A stretch of 9,541 nt of DNA from positions 1-9,541 of the forward strand of contig CALZJV010000385.1 in the NCBI GenBank assembly GCA_945787595.1. Direction: 5' to 3'. Below are positions 1-9,541 of the stretch, piece after piece; position 1 is the first letter of the stretch, and each line of letters begins with the position of its first letter. Under the pieces are notes generated by a model. It was not told the origin of the DNA, ran no database searches, and saw nothing but the letters and a program-made list of their open reading frames with translations. A program made the translations under genes and the position numbers. Origin of the DNA: an uncultured Desulfobacterales bacterium. GTDB taxonomy: Bacteria; Desulfobacterota; Desulfobacteria; Desulfobacterales; JAFDCJ01.

Positions 1-81
1 TTTTAAATGAGACACTTCTTTTTTTGATAATTTTTTATCGCTCAATACCACACCACCGTGCGGATTCCAAAATGCTCCCAT
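1..81 (-). CDS. possible 5' end of a gene running off the left edge
   Basis: On the minus strand an ATG at 81-79 opens a frame of 27 codons that stays open to the window edge and begins MGAFWNPHGGVV, ending in a lysine-rich stretch. An in-frame stop lies about ten codons upstream, so this ATG is the natural start. A weak AAGG lies just upstream as a possible ribosome site. I do not recognise the family and 27 codons is too short for a function. It could be a chance open frame; the sequence is AT-rich here, which makes a stop-free run of this length only moderately unlikely. Confidence 0.3.
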   Translation of the reverse strand, partial: MGAFWNPHGGVVLSDKKLSKKEVSHLK

Positions 82-634
82 ATAAAACCTTACAAAAGTC
101 TACAGCATCTCAATTATTATGCTCCCATGAGTCCGTCGTTAAAGGGGAGACGGACGGTACAACACCGCAAATAAATCCCACAGTCAGAATATCCGCCCCC
201 CCATGCAAAAGAAGACCTGGCCGTTATGTAAACAGAATTTTCAAGCAAGCTTGATGACAAAAGCATTCCATCCGGTCAATAACCGATTGGCCAGGCACTG
301 GTAATCCACAGCAAAATATGTGCCAGTTTTATTTATTCATAAATAGGAAATGATATTAATATGATAAGAAATTTCGTAGCGGAGGGAGCTATTGATACTA
401 TGAAATAAACTTGCTAAAATTGTGAAAAACTTTCTACCCTAATTGAGCGAAAACCCAGGATGCCCCAGATCCAAGGCATCAAGGATGAAGCCGTATTCGA
501 ATACGGTCCGCCGACGGAATAACACAGGTTAGGGGTATTCCTCCAGGCGGATTATCCAGATCGGCTTTGCCGCACGGCAAATAAAAATGGTATTAAAAAT
601 GGACATTTACAACCTATCATCTTAAGTTAGTTTC
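82..634. other. spacer upstream of the MaoC gene, no convincing gene
   Basis: About 550 bases without a credible coding region. A 76-codon plus-strand frame at 24-254 has no ribosome site and no protein-like composition. The spacer holds a 7-bp hairpin (GTCCGTC at 131-137 pairing with GACGGAC at 149-155, 11-base loop) and a perfect 16-base palindrome at 491-506. The stretch from about 440 to 600 is richer in GC than the flanks and could be a dispersed repeat or a structured leader, but nothing here identifies it. Confidence 0.5.
491..506. repeat. perfect 16-base palindrome CCGTATTCGAATACGG
   Basis: The sequence CCGTATTCGAATACGG equals its own reverse complement. It sits about 130 bases upstream of the MaoC gene start. 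Such a site could be an operator for a dimeric regulator or part of a dispersed intergenic repeat. No regulator is encoded nearby, so its role is unknown. Confidence 0.5.
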
Positions 635-2819: not shown

Positions 2820-4121
2820 TTATAAACCGTATTGTTCTTTTACCAGATGCGCAATGCCTAGTTGTTCCAGCCGGCTAATGGGGGTGAGCATGGAGATGTG
2901 AACTATGCCGGGAAGGCGACCGATTTCAATGCCTCCTGTAATGGTTACGCGGTTTTTCACTTCATCAATATCCATATCTGCTAACTTTGCCATTCGTTCG
3001 AGACCGTTCATTGTAGCCTCATTCAAATTAGCACCTGAACCCACCACCTGGATGGGGGCCACCTCAGTTTGGATATCAAAACCGCTCCTGCTGGCTAGTG
3101 ATCGGGCGGCCTCCAACTCTTCATTAGAAGGTAATCTCGCCAGCGGCGGCAGATTCTCCATTAAAGGCAATAAGATCGGTCCATCATTTGCTAATTTTTT
3201 GATGACCTCGACCTCAATAGTGACCTCCGCAGATACGTCCGTCGTATGACCTGCAATCTCCCCGTCCCCCTGCATCGCATGGACATCACCTACGATTATG
3301 CCTGCTTGCGCAACTTTAACAGGTGCAATAACGATAGCACCTTCACCGACACTATCGATGTCCATGTGAGTATCACTTCTTTTCGCCAGATCTACTTCAG
3401 TGATGGCATGATCATGAGGGGCACCAATAAGAAACACCCCAAAGTCTCCGGCATTATGAGACGAGGGCAGGGTAACGCCGGGTAAAGTTCCCAAATTGCC
3501 TATCATCGGCCGAATCTTCGATACAATTCCAGCAGGCATATCTGCCAGAGCAAAAACCAATATGGAGTGGCAGGTAGATCCCGCAGGTGCTCCGGAATAG
3601 TCTTCTGCATTTCTGGCTATTTCTTCTGCTACGTGATTGGGAACTGTGACTCCCACTGTGCGTTTATCATCAAAAACCATGGTATATCCATTAGTTACAT
3701 CAAATGCAGATATCGAAGTGTCGCAATCGGCACAGCAGATTGCATTTCTGCCAACTCCCTTTACAACTGTATTGGGATTGACTTTTCCGCACCCCGGACA
3801 TTTTTTTGCCACAAATGGATCACCAACAAAACTTCCTTCACGAGGAGTTTCAGTTCCAGACGCTGAAGCTTTGGAAGTAATCTTGATCTTTTTAATTCTT
3901 AGGGCGACACCGTCGCCAACTTCTGCACCCGCAACCGCTACGGGGCGGCTGATCGTGTGACCACTTTCAACTTCCGGCGTAATCATGGGACCATAGCACG
4001 CCGGTTCTGTGCCTGTTACAATTCGGCCACCATCTTTAACAGGGCCAAGCATTTCAGTTTCCGGACCGACTAGATCAATAAATTCACTTACGTACACTAT
4101 ATTTTCGCTTGATTTTTTCAC
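2820..4121 (-). CDS. acetamidase/formamidase family protein with inserted zinc ribbon
   Basis: A 433-residue cytoplasmic protein of the FmdA/AmdA family, whose characterised members hydrolyse formamide or acetamide to ammonia and the acid. The family signature is clear: GDVHAMQGDGEIAGH at about 278-292 followed by the acidic strand TIEVEV, plus HNAGDFGVFLIGAPHDHA around 222-239. An unusual insertion at about 105-135 carries CPGC (108, 111) and CC-x2-C (129/130, 133), a four-cysteine zinc-ribbon pattern. At 433 residues it is longer than many family members, which the insertion partly explains. It starts with GTG; an AGGAGG seven bases upstream supports this choice. dinB lies downstream on the same strand after a 254-base gap with a hairpin, so they are probably separate units. 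The substrate is not determinable: the subgroup could act on another amide. Confidence 0.85.
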   Translation of the reverse strand: MKKSSENIVYVSEFIDLVGPETEMLGPVKDGGRIVTGTEPACYGPMITPEVESGHTISRPVAVAGAEVGDGVALRIKKIKITSKASASGTETPREGSFVGDPFVAKKCPGCGKVNPNTVVKGVGRNAICCADCDTSISAFDVTNGYTMVFDDKRTVGVTVPNHVAEEIARNAEDYSGAPAGSTCHSILVFALADMPAGIVSKIRPMIGNLGTLPGVTLPSSHNAGDFGVFLIGAPHDHAITEVDLAKRSDTHMDIDSVGEGAIVIAPVKVAQAGIIVGDVHAMQGDGEIAGHTTDVSAEVTIEVEVIKKLANDGPILLPLMENLPPLARLPSNEELEAARSLASRSGFDIQTEVAPIQVVGSGANLNEATMNGLERMAKLADMDIDEVKNRVTITGGIEIGRLPGIVHISMLTPISRLEQLGIAHLVKEQYGL

Positions 4122-4128
4122 TTAATCC

Positions 4129-4134
4129 CCTCCT
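4129..4134 (-). promoter_or_regulatory. Shine-Dalgarno AGGAGG for the acetamidase-like gene
   Basis: A perfect AGGAGG on the minus strand lies 7 bases before a GTG codon at 4121-4119. It decides the start, because no ATG is positioned as well. Confidence 0.75.
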
Positions 4135-4590
4135 CTCTTTTCTGACAGAGTCAAAATCTAATCTTTACCAACCTACCCGTGAACCAAACCTTGGATAGGA
4201 ATTATCGACGCAAACCCAACAGGTAGCTTCCTCGTCCAAACTGTCAATCATCCAAAGACGATAAGAGATAGAGATAAGGAATTGCGTTTTCAGTGCGAAT
4301 CCATCGAAAATGGTGAATTGTACACCGACTTCAGCTGCAGCCCAGCATATGGAGGCATCCATTAATCGGAAACTATAACCATCCGGATAACGAAAGTTGG
4401 CTTTATTGTCAAGATCGATTTGGAACTTTGATATTAAATTGATCACGGTTGCGGCTGGTGTTTTCGTTAAAATGAATTGTACACAAAAATGATGCAGTTA
4501 AAAGTCTGTTGGCGACAGCAGGATAACTGGCATTCTTAAAATAATGCATTAAGTTTATCTTAGCGGATAAAAAATTTCATAGGAGTTTCC
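4135..4590. other. divergent spacer with a repeat copy and doubtful small frames
   Basis: The space between the divergent amidase-like and DUF3500 genes. It should contain both promoters, though none stands out. Two minus-strand frames were considered. One of 93 codons (4165-4446, GTG start, no ribosome site) is rich in aromatic residues and ends SRVGW; it matches no family I know. One of 46 codons (4409-4549, ATG start, no ribosome site) runs through the repeat at 4414-4481. Neither is supported enough to call a gene. Confidence 0.4.
4414..4481 (+). repeat. 68-base dispersed direct repeat, copy 1
   Basis: This segment matches 9391-9458 in the same orientation and with the same length, differing at only four positions by direct comparison. 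Outside these limits the two sequences diverge. It lies in the spacer upstream of the DUF3500 gene. Confidence 0.85.
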
Positions 4591-5634
4591 ATGTACTTAG
4601 CAATCAGGTACAGCTGGTTCTTCATAACCGTTGCCTGTGTTTTTATTCCAATGACTGCATATGCTCATGAAATAAGCGCACCCGCAACAGCCGCCCAAAT
4701 GGTTAGGGCGGCCAACGCCCTATTATATGCCCTCTCGCCCGGACAGCAGAAAGGCGCCTGGTTGGAATTCGAAGACACCGAGCGGTTTGATTGGCATTAT
4801 GTGCCACGGAACCGCGCAGGTTTGGCCCTTAAAGATATGACGGATGATCAACGCCAACTTGCTTTGCAGTTTTTAAAGGTCGGCTTGAGCCAAGGCGGGT
4901 ATCTCAAAGCGACCAACATCATGGCGCTGGAGGCAGTATTGCGTGAGATCGAAACCTCGAACTGGCTAGGGCGGGACCCGGAAAAGTATTTCTTTTCCTT
5001 TTTCGGACAGCCATCCGAAAATAACACATGGGGCTGGAGGGTGGAGGGGCATCATCTATCCCTTAACATCACCATCGTCGAGGGGCATCTGTTCGCAACG
5101 TCGCCTCGCTTTCTGGGCGCCAATCCGGCCGAAGTCGCAGAAGGGAATATGAGCGGTGCGCGCACGCTGTTCAACGAAGAATACCTGGCTCGCAAGCTTG
5201 TAAAGTCTCTGGATCAGAAGCAACAGAGAAAAGCCGTTTTTCGCAATCGTGCCTATCGCGACATCGTGACCGGCAGCGATGAGAAGGTTTCGCCTCTGGA
5301 GTTGGTGGGAATTTCTGCCGGAGAATTAAATCAAGCACAAATGGATTTGCTGATCAGGCTGATCGACGAATATATATCGAGCATGCCGCCTGAAATCGCC
5401 CGTCAGCGCATGGATGCCATCCGCCAGAGCGATTTGGATCTCACTTATTTCGGTTGGGCCGGTGCTATAGAGCCCGGCCGGCCACATTATTATCGTATTC
5501 AGGGGCCCACTTTTCTTATCGAGTACGACAATGTGCAAAACGGTGCCAATCACATCCACACCGTATGGCGGGATTTCGACGGTGATTTCGGTCGGGACCT
5601 GCTGCGGGAGCACTACCGGAAGGCACATCAGTGA
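4591..5634 (+). CDS. exported DUF3500 domain protein
   Basis: A 347-residue protein with a Sec-type signal peptide: a short basic start, a hydrophobic run at about 8-22 and a likely cleavage after AYA (residue 25). The mature part matches the DUF3500 family as I know it: a helical segment with LSPGQQKGAWLEFED, then FFGQPSENNTWGWRVEGHHLSLNI at about 137-160, FLGANPAEV, and a C-terminal ANHIHTVWRDFDGDFG. The several His and Trp residues suggest a binding or catalytic site, but the family's biochemical function is unknown to me. An AGGAG immediately upstream (4581-4585) supports the ATG. It stands alone on its strand, convergent with the nitrile hydratase operon and divergent from the amidase-like gene. 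It should be periplasmic or secreted, and no lipobox cysteine is present. Confidence 0.85.
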   Translation: MYLAIRYSWFFITVACVFIPMTAYAHEISAPATAAQMVRAANALLYALSPGQQKGAWLEFEDTERFDWHYVPRNRAGLALKDMTDDQRQLALQFLKVGLSQGGYLKATNIMALEAVLREIETSNWLGRDPEKYFFSFFGQPSENNTWGWRVEGHHLSLNITIVEGHLFATSPRFLGANPAEVAEGNMSGARTLFNEEYLARKLVKSLDQKQQRKAVFRNRAYRDIVTGSDEKVSPLELVGISAGELNQAQMDLLIRLIDEYISSMPPEIARQRMDAIRQSDLDLTYFGWAGAIEPGRPHYYRIQGPTFLIEYDNVQNGANHIHTVWRDFDGDFGRDLLREHYRKAHQ

Positions 5635-5885: not shown

Positions 5886-5920
5886 TCCGATAATGTGACG
5901 AAGTAGAGTTATTTATCGGA
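5886..5920 (-). terminator. possible hairpin after the nitrile hydratase operon
   Basis: TCCGATAA at 5886-5893 is the exact inverted match of TTATCGGA at 5913-5920, with a 19-base loop. It begins about 20 bases beyond the accessory gene's stop on the minus strand and is followed by an A/T-rich run. The stem is short and AT-rich, so termination is uncertain. Confidence 0.3.
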
Positions 5921-5940
5921 GGAAATTCAAATTCGATTTT

Positions 5941-6247
5941 TTATTGGTGGGGTGAAGGCTTATCTCTGCTCCGCTCCCGGCTTATAGCAGCTGAAAGGCC
6001 GACAGGCCGGCCGTGGGGCGTGTTAAGATAGGCATGTCGCCATGTCGCCTTGCGCCGGTGCATGTCCTCGCTGCCGACGAGGCCCTTTGCGGCACAGATC
6101 CGTTCAAGGGCGTTGAGCCAGTGCTGGTAATAAGTGTGACCCAGGTCCGGATCGCCCCTTCGCTTCCCAAGGTTGATTGAAGACCGGACCGTCTTGGTCC
6201 CGGGGCAGTGCCGGGAGATTTTCGATGGACAAGCGGGTATCTCTCAT
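5941..6247 (-). pseudogene. nitrile hydratase accessory/activator protein, frameshifted with internal deletion
   Basis: This is the third gene of the operon and resembles the small activator proteins (P14K/NhlE type) that load cobalt into the nitrile hydratase alpha subunit. The first 30 codons (6247-6158) read [20 protein letters not shown] then PVFNQPWEA, the conserved activator N-terminus. From 6156 the homology continues in a different frame for 71 residues, including GDPDLGHTYYQHWLNALERI and AYLNTPHGRP, to a TAA at 5943-5941. The total of 307 bases is not a multiple of three. Compared with a typical activator, about 30 residues between the WEA and the GDPD segments, normally an AFAL...W..W helix region, are absent. 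The gene starts in a TGATG overlap with the beta-subunit stop. Translation in the first frame would give a 71-residue truncated product. A sequencing or assembly error is possible. Confidence 0.8.
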
Positions 6248-6915
6248 CAGGCAGGCTCCAGATAATCTTGCCACAAATCGACATAGACGGCGTTGCGGCC
6301 GGAAGCGCTCTCGCCCCATAATGCCTCTGCCGTAAAGCGTACGCTGTAAAGATGCCGCCCTTCTTTTGACCCCTCGGCGTTTCGGTCCGGGAAGACATAG
6401 GGGCCGTGGTATTCGTGAATTACGCCCACGCGGCCGCGAACGTAACGGGGCTCGCGGGTATGACCGATCGGATGCCGGTTGACCGCACGGACACTTTCGC
6501 CGGATTTGAAACGCGGTGGACTACTGATCGTCATCGCCACCGGACTCCCTTTGGCGATAGCCTCGGCGACCTTTTCGGCCTTGAGGATACATTGCCGTAT
6601 TGACCCATCCGCCGGTCCTGCAGCTTTGCCGGTCTTCAACTCCTCCGGATTCACAAGTTCCGCTTCGACCAACAGCTTTTCCAGACCCGCCAGCCAGTTT
6701 TCGTAGTAGGTATGCCGCAGATAATCTACCGGATGTTGTCGTTCACGGGCATAGCGCGACATGTCGATATTCCATTTGCCTAGAAACCCGGCTGCCAGAG
6801 CCAGGCCGAACACACGTTTTTCCCAATCTGTGTGAAAGACCGGTTCCTCGGTTTCGGGTTGCGGGTTAATCGGGCCGAGGCCATGCGTACCACCCAGATC
6901 GTGTGCGCCGTTCAT
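6247..6915 (-). CDS. nthB: nitrile hydratase beta subunit
   Basis: The 222-residue beta subunit of nitrile hydratase, which pairs with alpha in the cytoplasm to hydrate nitriles to amides. The N-terminus [16 protein letters not shown] is diagnostic for this subunit. [11 protein letters not shown] and the [21 protein letters not shown] region (54-74) follow, with arginines near 54-59 where the family places one Arg contacting the oxidised claw cysteines. [16 protein letters not shown] (151-166) carries the second such Arg region, and the C-terminal SH3-like barrel ends [13 protein letters not shown]. Length is normal and nothing appears missing. Its ATG overlaps the alpha stop codon as ATGA, and an AGGAGG encoded by two Arg codons of alpha sits 5 bases upstream, so translation is coupled. 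Confidence 0.95.
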
Positions 6916-7628
6916 TTGTTCCTCCTAATATTCATCGGCGTTTTCGCCTTTTCGACCCCAATCATGGCGTTGCGGGTTACGAGTTCGGTGAGATCCGCTT
7001 CGCTCCAACCCTCAGTCCCCTCAGGGCGCTCCGGCAAAACCAGGTAGCGCATTTCCGAGGTCGAATCCCACACCCGGATCTCTACATCATCAGCTAACTT
7101 CGTGCCGAATTCTTCCAACACACCGCGTGGGTCAGCAACAGCACGGGCCCGGTATGGCGCGGATTTGTACCAAACGGGCGGCAGGCCCAGCACCGGCCAT
7201 GGATAACACGAGCATAGGGTGCAGACAACCAGGTTGTGGGCGGTCGGCGTGTTCTCCACCACTTTCATATGTTCGCCTGGATAACACGAGCATAGGGTGC
7301 AGACAACCAGGTTGTGGGCGGTCGGCGTGTTCTCCACCACTTTCATATGTTCGCCCTGTCGTCCAGTGTAGCCCAGAGAAGCGATGGCCGTCGTCGCATC
7401 CCTCAACAGCCACTGTTTGAACTCTGAATCGCCCCAGGCACGCGCGACAACATTCGCGCCATTGCGCGGGCCGATCTTGGTTTCGTAGGTGTCGATCAGC
7501 ACGTCGATTGCCGCCGGTTCAACCAGGCCCTTCTCGATCAGCAACGATTCGAGCGCCTGGACACGCAAAACCAAATCAGACGGCGGTTCGGTATGATCGA
7601 GATCATGGGAATGATGGTGTTCATTCAC
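6912..7628 (-). CDS. nthA: cobalt-type nitrile hydratase alpha subunit with duplicated metal-binding claw
   Basis: The catalytic alpha subunit, 238 residues against about 205-212 for close family members. The N-terminus is His-rich ([11 protein letters not shown]), as in several cobalt-type enzymes. [16 protein letters not shown], the [13 protein letters not shown] segment and [10 protein letters not shown] are normal. The active-site claw CTLCSC, whose Thr marks cobalt rather than iron enzymes, appears twice: C110/C113/C115 and C136/C139/C141. Residues 92-117 and 118-143 are an identical 26-residue tandem repeat. Only the second copy leads into the expected [17 protein letters not shown]. 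Removing one copy restores a standard 212-residue protein. The start is a GTG at 7628, favoured by GGGAGGAAG upstream; an ATG two bases inside is out of frame. In a sampled line (7441-7500) GC is 62 percent, far above the patatin gene. Confidence 0.95.
6921..6926 (-). promoter_or_regulatory. Shine-Dalgarno AGGAGG for the beta subunit inside the alpha gene
   Basis: AGGAGG on the minus strand encodes two arginines near the alpha C-terminus and lies 5 bases before the beta ATG, which overlaps the alpha TGA. It supports coupled 1:1 synthesis of alpha and beta. Confidence 0.7.
7200..7355. repeat. perfect 78-base tandem duplication within the alpha gene
   Basis: Bases 7200-7277 and 7278-7355 are identical at all 78 positions, and the flanks differ immediately outside (A at 7199 versus C at 7277; C at 7356 versus T at 7278). 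Since 78 is 26 codons, the reading frame is kept. The unit spans the complete conserved block from GEHM to the claw cysteines and the following YP. Confidence 0.97.
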
Positions 7629-7634
7629 GGCAAC

Positions 7635-7643
7635 TTCCTCCCT
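7635..7643 (-). promoter_or_regulatory. ribosome binding site of the alpha subunit
   Basis: AGGGAGGAA on the minus strand precedes the GTG at 7628 by about 6 bases. It supports the GTG as the true start and so the inclusion of the His-rich N-terminus. Confidence 0.65.
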
Positions 7644-8310
7644 GAAAGCAAAGCCTGTCTAAGGAACATGCATCCTTCATTTTCATCGCCATCAATAGTG
7701 ATATGGCCGCAAAAAGGCGCAAAATGCACAAAAATAAAATTTCAGGACTTGTAATTTCAATGTGTTACAATGAACAAAAATCGAAATTCAGACTTGTTAC
7801 GAGCCCATCAACAGTCAACCGTACGGATTAACTGGTCGGCATGAGGCGAAATTATTCTTATCATATGAGTTAGGCATTTGACATGCACTTGTCAAGCTGA
7901 TTTTCAAACGAAAAGATAGGTTGGGAAAAAGCTTCCAAACGCCCCCTTTCACTAGTTTGATAGCAGCAACAATACCAATCAGCAGGTTCAGATTAATAGC
8001 TTAACAGCGGCTTCAGGGGAATATAAGGGAGTGAGATAAGGTATTGCTATTTCAAGGCGTATCAATCGAAAAAGAGGGAAGGAGTCAAACATAGACTTGA
8101 TAGATATAAAAAAAATTAGCCGGGTTAATTCATAAATCAGAATGTGACACCGAGCTTTGTGGCTGATTTCCATGTTAATGGCTTATTTATCAGAATACCA
8201 TCAGAAAGCTTGGGTAGATCGCGGAACTGATATTTTACATATTTTTCACTTTTGTCTTGTCACCAGCAATACCACCTATTAAATTGAGATATGTTTTATA
8301 TTTTGATTTG
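7644..8310. other. long AT-rich spacer between divergent nitrile hydratase and patatin genes
   Basis: Roughly 670 bases separating divergently transcribed genes, so both promoters should lie here. No intact gene is visible. A minus-strand 61-codon frame (7988-8173) has no ribosome site and reads as low-complexity hydrophobic sequence. Further left, around 7870-7975, another minus-strand frame gives a short hydrophobic stretch (NLLIGIVAAIKLVKGG) in a different frame from it, so a decayed gene is possible. The most protein-like debris is listed separately at 8137-8307. Confidence 0.45.
8137..8307 (-). pseudogene. possible decayed C-terminal fragment of an outer-membrane beta-barrel protein
   Basis: A minus-strand frame of about 40 codons ends at a TGA (8139-8137) with WKSATKLGVTF, an alternating pattern closing on Phe as outer-membrane barrel proteins commonly do. 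Before it comes KYVKYQFRDLPKLSDG. A neighbouring frame just upstream (about 8310-8245) reads YKTYLNLIGGIAGDKTKVKN, so one frameshift near 8245-8255 would join the two. There is no start codon or ribosome site, and its 5' end abuts the patatin ribosome site. This is pattern reading only; it could be chance. Confidence 0.22.
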
Positions 8311-8321: not shown

Positions 8322-9275
8322 ATGGCCCCAGAAAAAATAAAAAAACGAATTGCCATCGCCTGTCAAGGGGGTGGAAGTCATACGGCTTTCACAGCAGGTG
8401 TTTTAAAAAAGATTTTGAGTCAACGGGATAAAACTTTTGACATCGTTGCCTTGAGTGGTACCTCCGGGGGTGCGATCTGCGCCGCATTAACCTGGTATGG
8501 TTTATTAACGGGTAATGAGGTTAAAGCCATTGATCTTTTGGACGCGTTTTGGAAGGATAATGCTGCAGATACATTCTGGGATATTTGGTTGAACGATACC
8601 TTGATTTTATCTGAAAAAGTACGTGACTTTGTTTCCCAGCCGGAAGTTAATCCTTATTCTTTTCCTACCCATGGACAGGACCATTTGAAAGGCCTGTTGA
8701 ATAAGCATATTAATTTTGAAAAAACAAAGACGCTGGGGAAAACATCCGACCGTATGCTCCTTGTCGGTGCCGTTGATGTGCTCAGCGGTTATTTTAACGT
8801 TTTTAAAAATGATGAAGTCAGCGCAGAAGCACTACTGGCCTCCGCTGCGATTCCTACCTTGTTCAGAGCGGTGAAAATTGGCGACAAGGTGTATTGGGAC
8901 GGATTGTTTTCGCAAAACCCTCCTGTCCGGGATTTGACTGAGACCTCTCCCGATGAGATATGGGTCATACAAATAAACCCCCCGCAAAGGACGAAAGAGC
9001 CTACCTCCATCGAAGAAATACGGGACCGCCGAAATGAACTTGCCGGCAACATTTCTTTAGAGCAAGAGATATATTTTATAAGAAAAATCAATGAATTTGT
9101 AAAAAGTAAATCGTTTTCAAACGACAAATATAAGCATATCGAAGTAAGACGGATTCGAATGCTTCGAGATTTGAATTATTCCACAAAACTAGAACGCCGG
9201 CTTGAATTTATACAAGACATGATAGCCTATGGTGAGCGCCAGGCTGAAGATTTCCTGAAGGGCTTAGGCATGTAG
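8322..9275 (+). CDS. patatin-like phospholipase
   Basis: A 317-residue patatin-family acyl hydrolase, expected to cleave acyl ester bonds of phospholipids with a Ser-Asp dyad. The glycine-rich oxyanion loop GGGSHTAFTAGVL (16-28) is followed by the nucleophile elbow LSGTSGGA with Ser48 (G-T-S-G-G). The catalytic Asp is D193 in YWDGLFSQNPPV, the usual D-G motif, preceded by ASAAIPTLFRAV (173-184), another family landmark. WVIQINP follows. The last 100 residues are helical and charged with no recognised domain. There is no signal peptide or membrane segment, so it is cytoplasmic or delivered by an unseen route. All catalytic residues are intact. It is monocistronic here and clearly AT-richer than the neighbouring nitrile hydratase genes (35 percent GC in the sampled line 8581-8640). 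Confidence 0.93.
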   Translation: MAPEKIKKRIAIACQGGGSHTAFTAGVLKKILSQRDKTFDIVALSGTSGGAICAALTWYGLLTGNEVKAIDLLDAFWKDNAADTFWDIWLNDTLILSEKVRDFVSQPEVNPYSFPTHGQDHLKGLLNKHINFEKTKTLGKTSDRMLLVGAVDVLSGYFNVFKNDEVSAEALLASAAIPTLFRAVKIGDKVYWDGLFSQNPPVRDLTETSPDEIWVIQINPPQRTKEPTSIEEIRDRRNELAGNISLEQEIYFIRKINEFVKSKSFSNDKYKHIEVRRIRMLRDLNYSTKLERRLEFIQDMIAYGERQAEDFLKGLGM

Positions 9276-9284
9276 GTAGCGTAG

Positions 9285-9362
9285 TTACCAATTAATCTCT
9301 AAATGGGTGACGGTTTCATCCACAAGTAACATCTTGCTCCCGAATTTCTCACATTTTACCAT
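9285..9362 (-). CDS. doubtful 25-codon small ORF next to the repeat
   Basis: A minus-strand ATG at 9362 opens a 25-residue frame beginning MVKCEKFGSKMLLVDETV and stopping at 9287-9285, just after the patatin stop. Composition is protein-like, but there is no Shine-Dalgarno sequence and no homologue I can name. It sits directly beside the dispersed repeat and may simply be part of the larger repeated element. Confidence 0.15.
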   Translation of the reverse strand: MVKCEKFGSKMLLVDETVTHLEINW

Positions 9363-9390
9363 TTTCAATCGATCACCTTAATGGTTTTAC

Positions 9391-9458
9391 ATCGATTTGG
9401 AACTTTGATATTAGATTGATCGCGATTGCGGCTGGTGTTTTCGCTAAAATGAATTGTA
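9391..9458 (+). repeat. 68-base dispersed direct repeat, copy 2
   Basis: It matches 4414-4481 in the same orientation over 68 bases with four substitutions and no gaps. The two copies are about 5 kb apart and bracket the DUF3500, nitrile hydratase and patatin genes. Confidence 0.85.
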
Positions 9459-9486
9459 TGCAAATTTCAATCAGATGGATTAATCA

Positions 9487-9541
9487 TGAAAAACATTTTA
9501 TCCGTGAATTTTCGCCTGGCAAGACCCGATGGATATCCGGG
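9487..9541 (+). CDS. possible gene start running off the right edge
   Basis: An ATG at 9487 opens 18 codons, beginning MKNILSVNFRLARPDGYP, that remain open to the window end. No good ribosome site precedes it. The opposite strand is also open across this stretch, so strand and reality are both uncertain. Confidence 0.15.

Follow-up and report, generated by a model that had tools for sequence, protein, structure and literature searches.

What does it mean for a cobalt-type nitrile hydratase when the block of its alpha subunit that holds the metal-binding claw (CTLCSC) is encoded twice? This question is raised by contig CALZJV010000385.1 of an uncultured Desulfobacterales bacterium (assembly GCA_945787595.1), of which we analyzed 9,541 nucleotides, apparently its whole length, and which we refer to as the window. 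On its minus strand lies an operon for the alpha subunit (nthA), the beta subunit (nthB), and the cobalt activator, in which nthA carries an exact 78-base tandem duplication and, as we found by comparison with relatives, the activator gene is broken. The reading that we favor is that the block was recently duplicated in tandem while the operon was at an early stage of inactivation, and we give it an even chance of being correct; we found no support for two working metal sites.

The two repeat units occupy positions 7200-7277 and 7278-7355, with a period of 78, 2.0 copies, and 100% matches, a result on which a repeat finder and Tandem Repeats Finder (TRF) concur. The unit encodes 26 residues in frame, and these occur twice in the nthA product. 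In reading order on the minus strand, copy 1 (7278..7355) encodes residues 92-117 and copy 2 (7200..7277) encodes residues 118-143, after which the protein goes on with the native WPVLGLPP continuation. Claw 1 (7284..7301, minus strand) spans residues 110-115 and claw 2 (7206..7223, minus strand) spans residues 136-141, placing the claw cysteines at 110/113/115 and 136/139/141. A preliminary description of this DNA had reported an identical, in-frame duplicate of the CTLCSC block and these same two sets of Cys ligands; the repeat finder, TRF, and the open reading frame (ORF) coordinates bear out the former, and claws that begin at residues 110 and 136 agree with the latter. An exact 78-base tandem is far beyond what is expected by chance. 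By eye, the array contains no partial third copy, the bases that adjoin its ends do not extend the repeat, and the unit ends have zero bases in common with the flanks, which gives no direct evidence of short-repeat slippage. The unit start is touched by imperfect 11-base inverted repeats, on which no conclusion was based.

The duplicated gene belongs to the expected family and has its usual partner. We found that nthA (6912..7628, minus strand; 238 amino acids, GTG start) overlaps nthB (6247..6915, minus strand; 222 amino acids, intact) by 4 bases, with nthB overlapping the nthA stop. The alpha subunit scored 347.2 bits against TIGR01323 (cut-off, 249.85) and 337.5 bits against PF02979 (cut-off, 27.2), while the intact beta subunit encoded next to it matched TIGR03888 at 230.7 bits (cut-off, 152.2) as well as PF21006 and PF02211. 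The cobalt-type claw pattern, C-T-L-C-S-C, occurs in the nthA product at two places rather than once, as in a canonical alpha subunit, and the operon does not have the intact activator gene of a working cobalt nitrile hydratase operon. Two other assignments of nthA were tried and rejected: a thiocyanate hydrolase gamma subunit was ruled out by a TIGR03887 score of 211.6 bits, below the cut-off of 291.45, and the NHLP leader of a ribosomally synthesized and posttranslationally modified peptide precursor was matched by TIGR03793 at 66 (cut-off, 50.9), yet this match sits in a 238-amino-acid alpha subunit with a beta partner.

By alpha subunit, the closest genome loci are those of a Desulfosarcina metagenome-assembled genome (locus L001, in genome G001) and of the Olavius symbiont Delta 1 (locus L002, in genome G002). 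The operon can be aligned with both from about 5909 to 7649, and a stretch upstream is also common to them (7805-7900 with L001 at 83%, 7835-7916 with L002 at 81%). In this alignment, both relatives are gapped across the extra 78 columns and have one copy each, and judged from it the duplication is derived. The preliminary description had proposed a very recent event, strong conversion, or an assembly artifact as the source of the identical copies; zero divergence combined with a single copy in both near relatives points to the first or the last of these.

The alignment with the relatives also revealed a second lesion, which was absent from the preliminary description. In the activator gene, 98 bases are gone after codon 30 and the frame is lost. 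A tblastn search with the L002 activator recovered the first 30 codons at 6158..6247 (minus strand, frame -1, 74% identity), and the remainder follows out of frame at 5941..6157 (minus strand, frame -2, 69% identity to L002). As a result of the deletion, the ORF from the activator start at 6247 has 47 codons, with its stop codon at 6104-6106, compared to 126 codons in L002; at the deletion point, the alignment permits about two shared bases, as seen by eye. In L001 and L002 the gene is whole, with scores of 94.5 and 95.4 bits against TIGR03889 (cut-off, 46), the model for the nitrile hydratase accessory protein that is the "activator" of the literature. Among 79 genome loci, a match that spans activator residues 25-95 in one piece was found outside the beta gene in 59, a count from which cross-matches falling in the beta gene were excluded; 10 others have a shorter activator match only, and 10 have none at all, some of these on short contigs. 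Since the activator is whole in both near relatives and spanning in 59 of the 79 loci, the broken form is most likely derived.

Both lesions look recent because the rest of the activator gene is well kept. They lie within 1.2 kb of each other in one operon, and the other genes of the window that could be compared are undamaged, a distribution that supports inactivation. For example, nthB is ungapped over 222 of 222 residues against G001 and G002, AmdA is ungapped over 433 of 433 residues against G001, and 361 to 362 of the 371 DinB residues align with those of six relatives with 0 to 3 gaps. For MaoC and patatin, no relative was found in the compared loci, and for DUF3500 only a 40-residue piece in L002. 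Outside the duplication, nthA DNA is 87% identical to L001 and 91% identical to L002 (ratios of nonsynonymous to synonymous substitution rates of 0.11 and 0.13, respectively), and nthB DNA is 89% identical to both. The private amino acid and silent codon changes of the window number 6 and 12 in nthA and 7 and 8 in nthB; the same counts are 9 and 34 (nthA) and 13 and 14 (nthB) for L001, and 5 and 16 (nthA) and 11 and 13 (nthB) for L002.

The host is probably an uncultured relative of the genomes G001 to G005, because the window DinB is 74 to 82% identical to theirs. In this group the nitrile hydratase gene is rare and patchy: among 58 genomes around and including that of the Olavius symbiont Delta 1, a match was found in 2, namely the two genomes that carry the closest loci.

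To place the doubled claw within its family, we made three protein searches, with the whole alpha subunit, with the two copies only, and with the duplication of another two-claw protein (P0003), each of which scored at most 8,000 candidates and gave 120 listed matches. Two claws were present in 3 of the 320 distinct proteins among the matches listed (the window's own, P0003, and P0206) and one claw in the other 317; as the second and third searches favor duplicated proteins, this proportion should not be taken as an unbiased frequency, and the ranking of the two-copies search is not exhaustive, P0003 being absent among its listed matches. The copies are spaced 26 residues apart in the window protein, 70 in P0003, and 88 in P0206, and are identical at 26/26, 71/73, and 67/67 residues, respectively. 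The preliminary description had proposed a search for proteins with two CTLCSC motifs 26 residues apart; the only other two-claw subunits among the matches listed have spacings of 70 and 88. Each of the three is a one-member cluster on one contig. With a different spacing in each protein, and with none of the repeats shared by a relative among those listed, these searches gave no conserved two-claw family. Of the genome loci, 79 of 79 have a single occurrence of the claw pattern. A match at 1e-20 was present in 85 of the 240 genomes of the class of G059, and none of the matches listed from these 240 genomes runs across both copies. We found no relative in viral contigs, and a plasmid search returned 179 records, 20 of them listed, with none above 80% identity. 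Among the open-library papers listed for this subject (in two cases the best 12 of 1,230 and the best 12 of 200), no title or abstract opening described a duplicated claw or a tandem duplication in nitrile hydratase, which is weak evidence of absence. Thus, a doubled claw seems to appear occasionally, and these searches showed no conservation of it. In the same searches, P0203, P0204, and P0205 have one claw each, yet reach unusually high scores of 258 to 267 bits when the P0003 duplication is the query, and P0030 joins alpha and beta domains in one 377-amino-acid protein.

In a fold prediction of the duplicated alpha subunit, strands form in copy 2, while copy 1 is modeled at low confidence. 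The predicted local distance difference test score (pLDDT) is below 50 at residues 89-117, which include copy 1, and at 142-155; only the duplicated protein was modeled, so the latter segment may be low regardless. All 60 other rows of the alignment used for the prediction were matched to copy 2, which favors that copy.

Our favored reading, recent inactivation, would order these observations as follows. In an uncultured Desulfosarcina relative, the nitrile hydratase operon may be entering inactivation: nthA carries an exact in-frame tandem of its claw block, missing from both near relatives, and 98 bases and the reading frame are lost from the activator gene. Loss of the activator would remove or greatly lower cobalt loading, and the duplicated block would add 26 residues next to the native claw, most probably as a disordered loop that precedes copy 2, without providing a second working metal site. 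Both changes would be recent and probably transient. According to PMC7193024, nearly every cluster contains an activator gene, which is indispensable if the enzyme is to be fully active, except in eukaryotes; PMC4709657 gives P14K as necessary for cobalt in the Pseudomonas putida enzyme. PMC3511329 gives 18.3 versus 439 units/mg for the P. putida apo-enzyme from cobalt-free culture, and reports direct cobalt uptake by this apo-enzyme as absent, with data not shown. On balance, with its claw block disturbed and its activator newly broken, such an operon is probably losing function.

Several observations weigh against this reading. The duplication preserves the reading frame, and the signature of decay that we sought in the substitution counts of nthA and nthB was absent, the counts of the window being much like those of L001 and L002, indicating no long relaxed selection; the lesions are thus either recent or artifacts. 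A spanning activator match is missing from 20 of the 79 genome loci, including some that lie on long contigs, so it is not out of the ordinary for this family to lack a linked activator. The nitrile hydratase of S. canus is described in PMC7329996 as having no activator gene, and in vitro, with reducing conditions, cobalt is reported there to enter its alpha subunit activator free. It is possible that an activator is encoded elsewhere in the genome of the host, which is known here from this contig alone. Finally, the model has no power to distinguish the two copies, because copy 2 is the one to which all 60 other alignment rows were matched.

Other explanations account for part of the same evidence. 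The duplication, and perhaps the activator deletion too, could stem from chimeric amplified reads or a wrong metagenome join. Zero divergence on a single 9,541-base contig, in a one-member cluster, would be expected of such an artifact, as would the 0 of 79 genome loci with two claws. Three other internal duplications, those of P0003, P0206, and P0207 (source label 'ena'; contigs of 1,302, 4,168, and 1,027 bases, respectively), are likewise one-member and single-contig, the one in P0207 being a duplication of the N-terminal part without the claw (62/73 residues identical). A de Bruijn assembler does not invent junction sequence, however, so some read must presumably contain the junction; in addition, the comparable neighbor genes have no large indels, and two different rearrangements would be required in one operon. 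We therefore consider an artifact possible but rather doubtful. It is unlikely, in our judgment, that the duplication is a tolerated insertion, in which one claw is native and holds one cobalt while the remaining copy forms a harmless loop, and either no linked activator is needed or one is supplied from elsewhere in the genome: the insert falls inside the metal-site block, the pLDDT is below 50 at residues 89-117 and 142-155 (with the caution given above for the latter), and the operon's own activator is broken.

Two further explanations would give the second claw a function. The preliminary description had raised a second metal as one of three outcomes, next to a loop insertion and a loss of folding, and a two-metal enzyme, with both claws oxidized and one cobalt ion each, could draw on the three cysteines and the serine kept in both claws and on the existence of two more two-claw alpha subunits. 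This suggestion is not supported, in view of the one-member clusters with differing repeat lengths, the low-confidence model of copy 1, and the broken activator gene; moreover, both the native strand and the beta subunit normally contribute to completing a claw, and only a single native strand and a single beta subunit are available here. We regard a two-metal enzyme as extremely improbable. Nearly as hard to credit is a linked origin of activator loss and claw gain, in which the spare claw replaces the lost activator by taking cobalt and passing it within the alpha subunit to the native site, or becomes a second metal center.

The window holds other features apart from the operon. Dispersed intergenic repeats are present at 4263-4421, at 4414-4487 with 9391-9464, and at 4261-4310 with 8023-8072. 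With 4130-4500 as query (the matches being mostly to 4263-4421), G001, G002, G004, and G005 gave 7 to 12 matches apiece, from a maximum of 12 scored candidates per genome; G028 gave one weak match, and the other 53 of the 58 genomes gave none. These repeats may be a small family of the clade, either mobile or structural. Window positions 1-437, 7805-7916, 8615-8693, and 9291-9541 match intergenic stretches of L001 (72 to 83%) in an order that is changed around the operon and the AmdA gene, one of them, upstream of nthA, being also common to L002; they represent either a rearranged neighborhood or more dispersed repeats. The acetamidase/formamidase-like gene at 2820-4121, which matched PF03069 well and the formamidase model weakly, is 93% identical to L001 1979-3280, near the L001 operon and in the opposite orientation relative to it. 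A piece of the DUF3500 gene (5427-5541) has 84% DNA identity to L002 10817-10931.

A working two-claw subunit would test how well an oxidized-cysteine metal site tolerates a tandem copy, and whether cobalt loading can pass to the enzyme itself from an activator that is normally separate. If the subunit does not work, the locus is a caution that a duplication, however striking, open, and in frame, may be one of a pair of recent lesions in an operon that is dying, the second of which was visible only on comparison of the whole operon with its relatives. Among known systems, the cobalt nitrile hydratase of P. putida (PDB 3qxe) is of the same family and is the best PDB sequence match (E value, 3.4e-91), and its alpha-beta-activator gene order, as given in PMC3511329, is that of the window; the P. 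putida enzyme has one claw, whereas the window has two and a broken activator gene. The L001 and L002 operons also share this gene order and, unlike the window, combine a single claw with a whole activator. In P0003 and P0206, the internal duplication includes the claw, as it does in the window, but P0206 has a 21-residue linker between its copies where the window has none.
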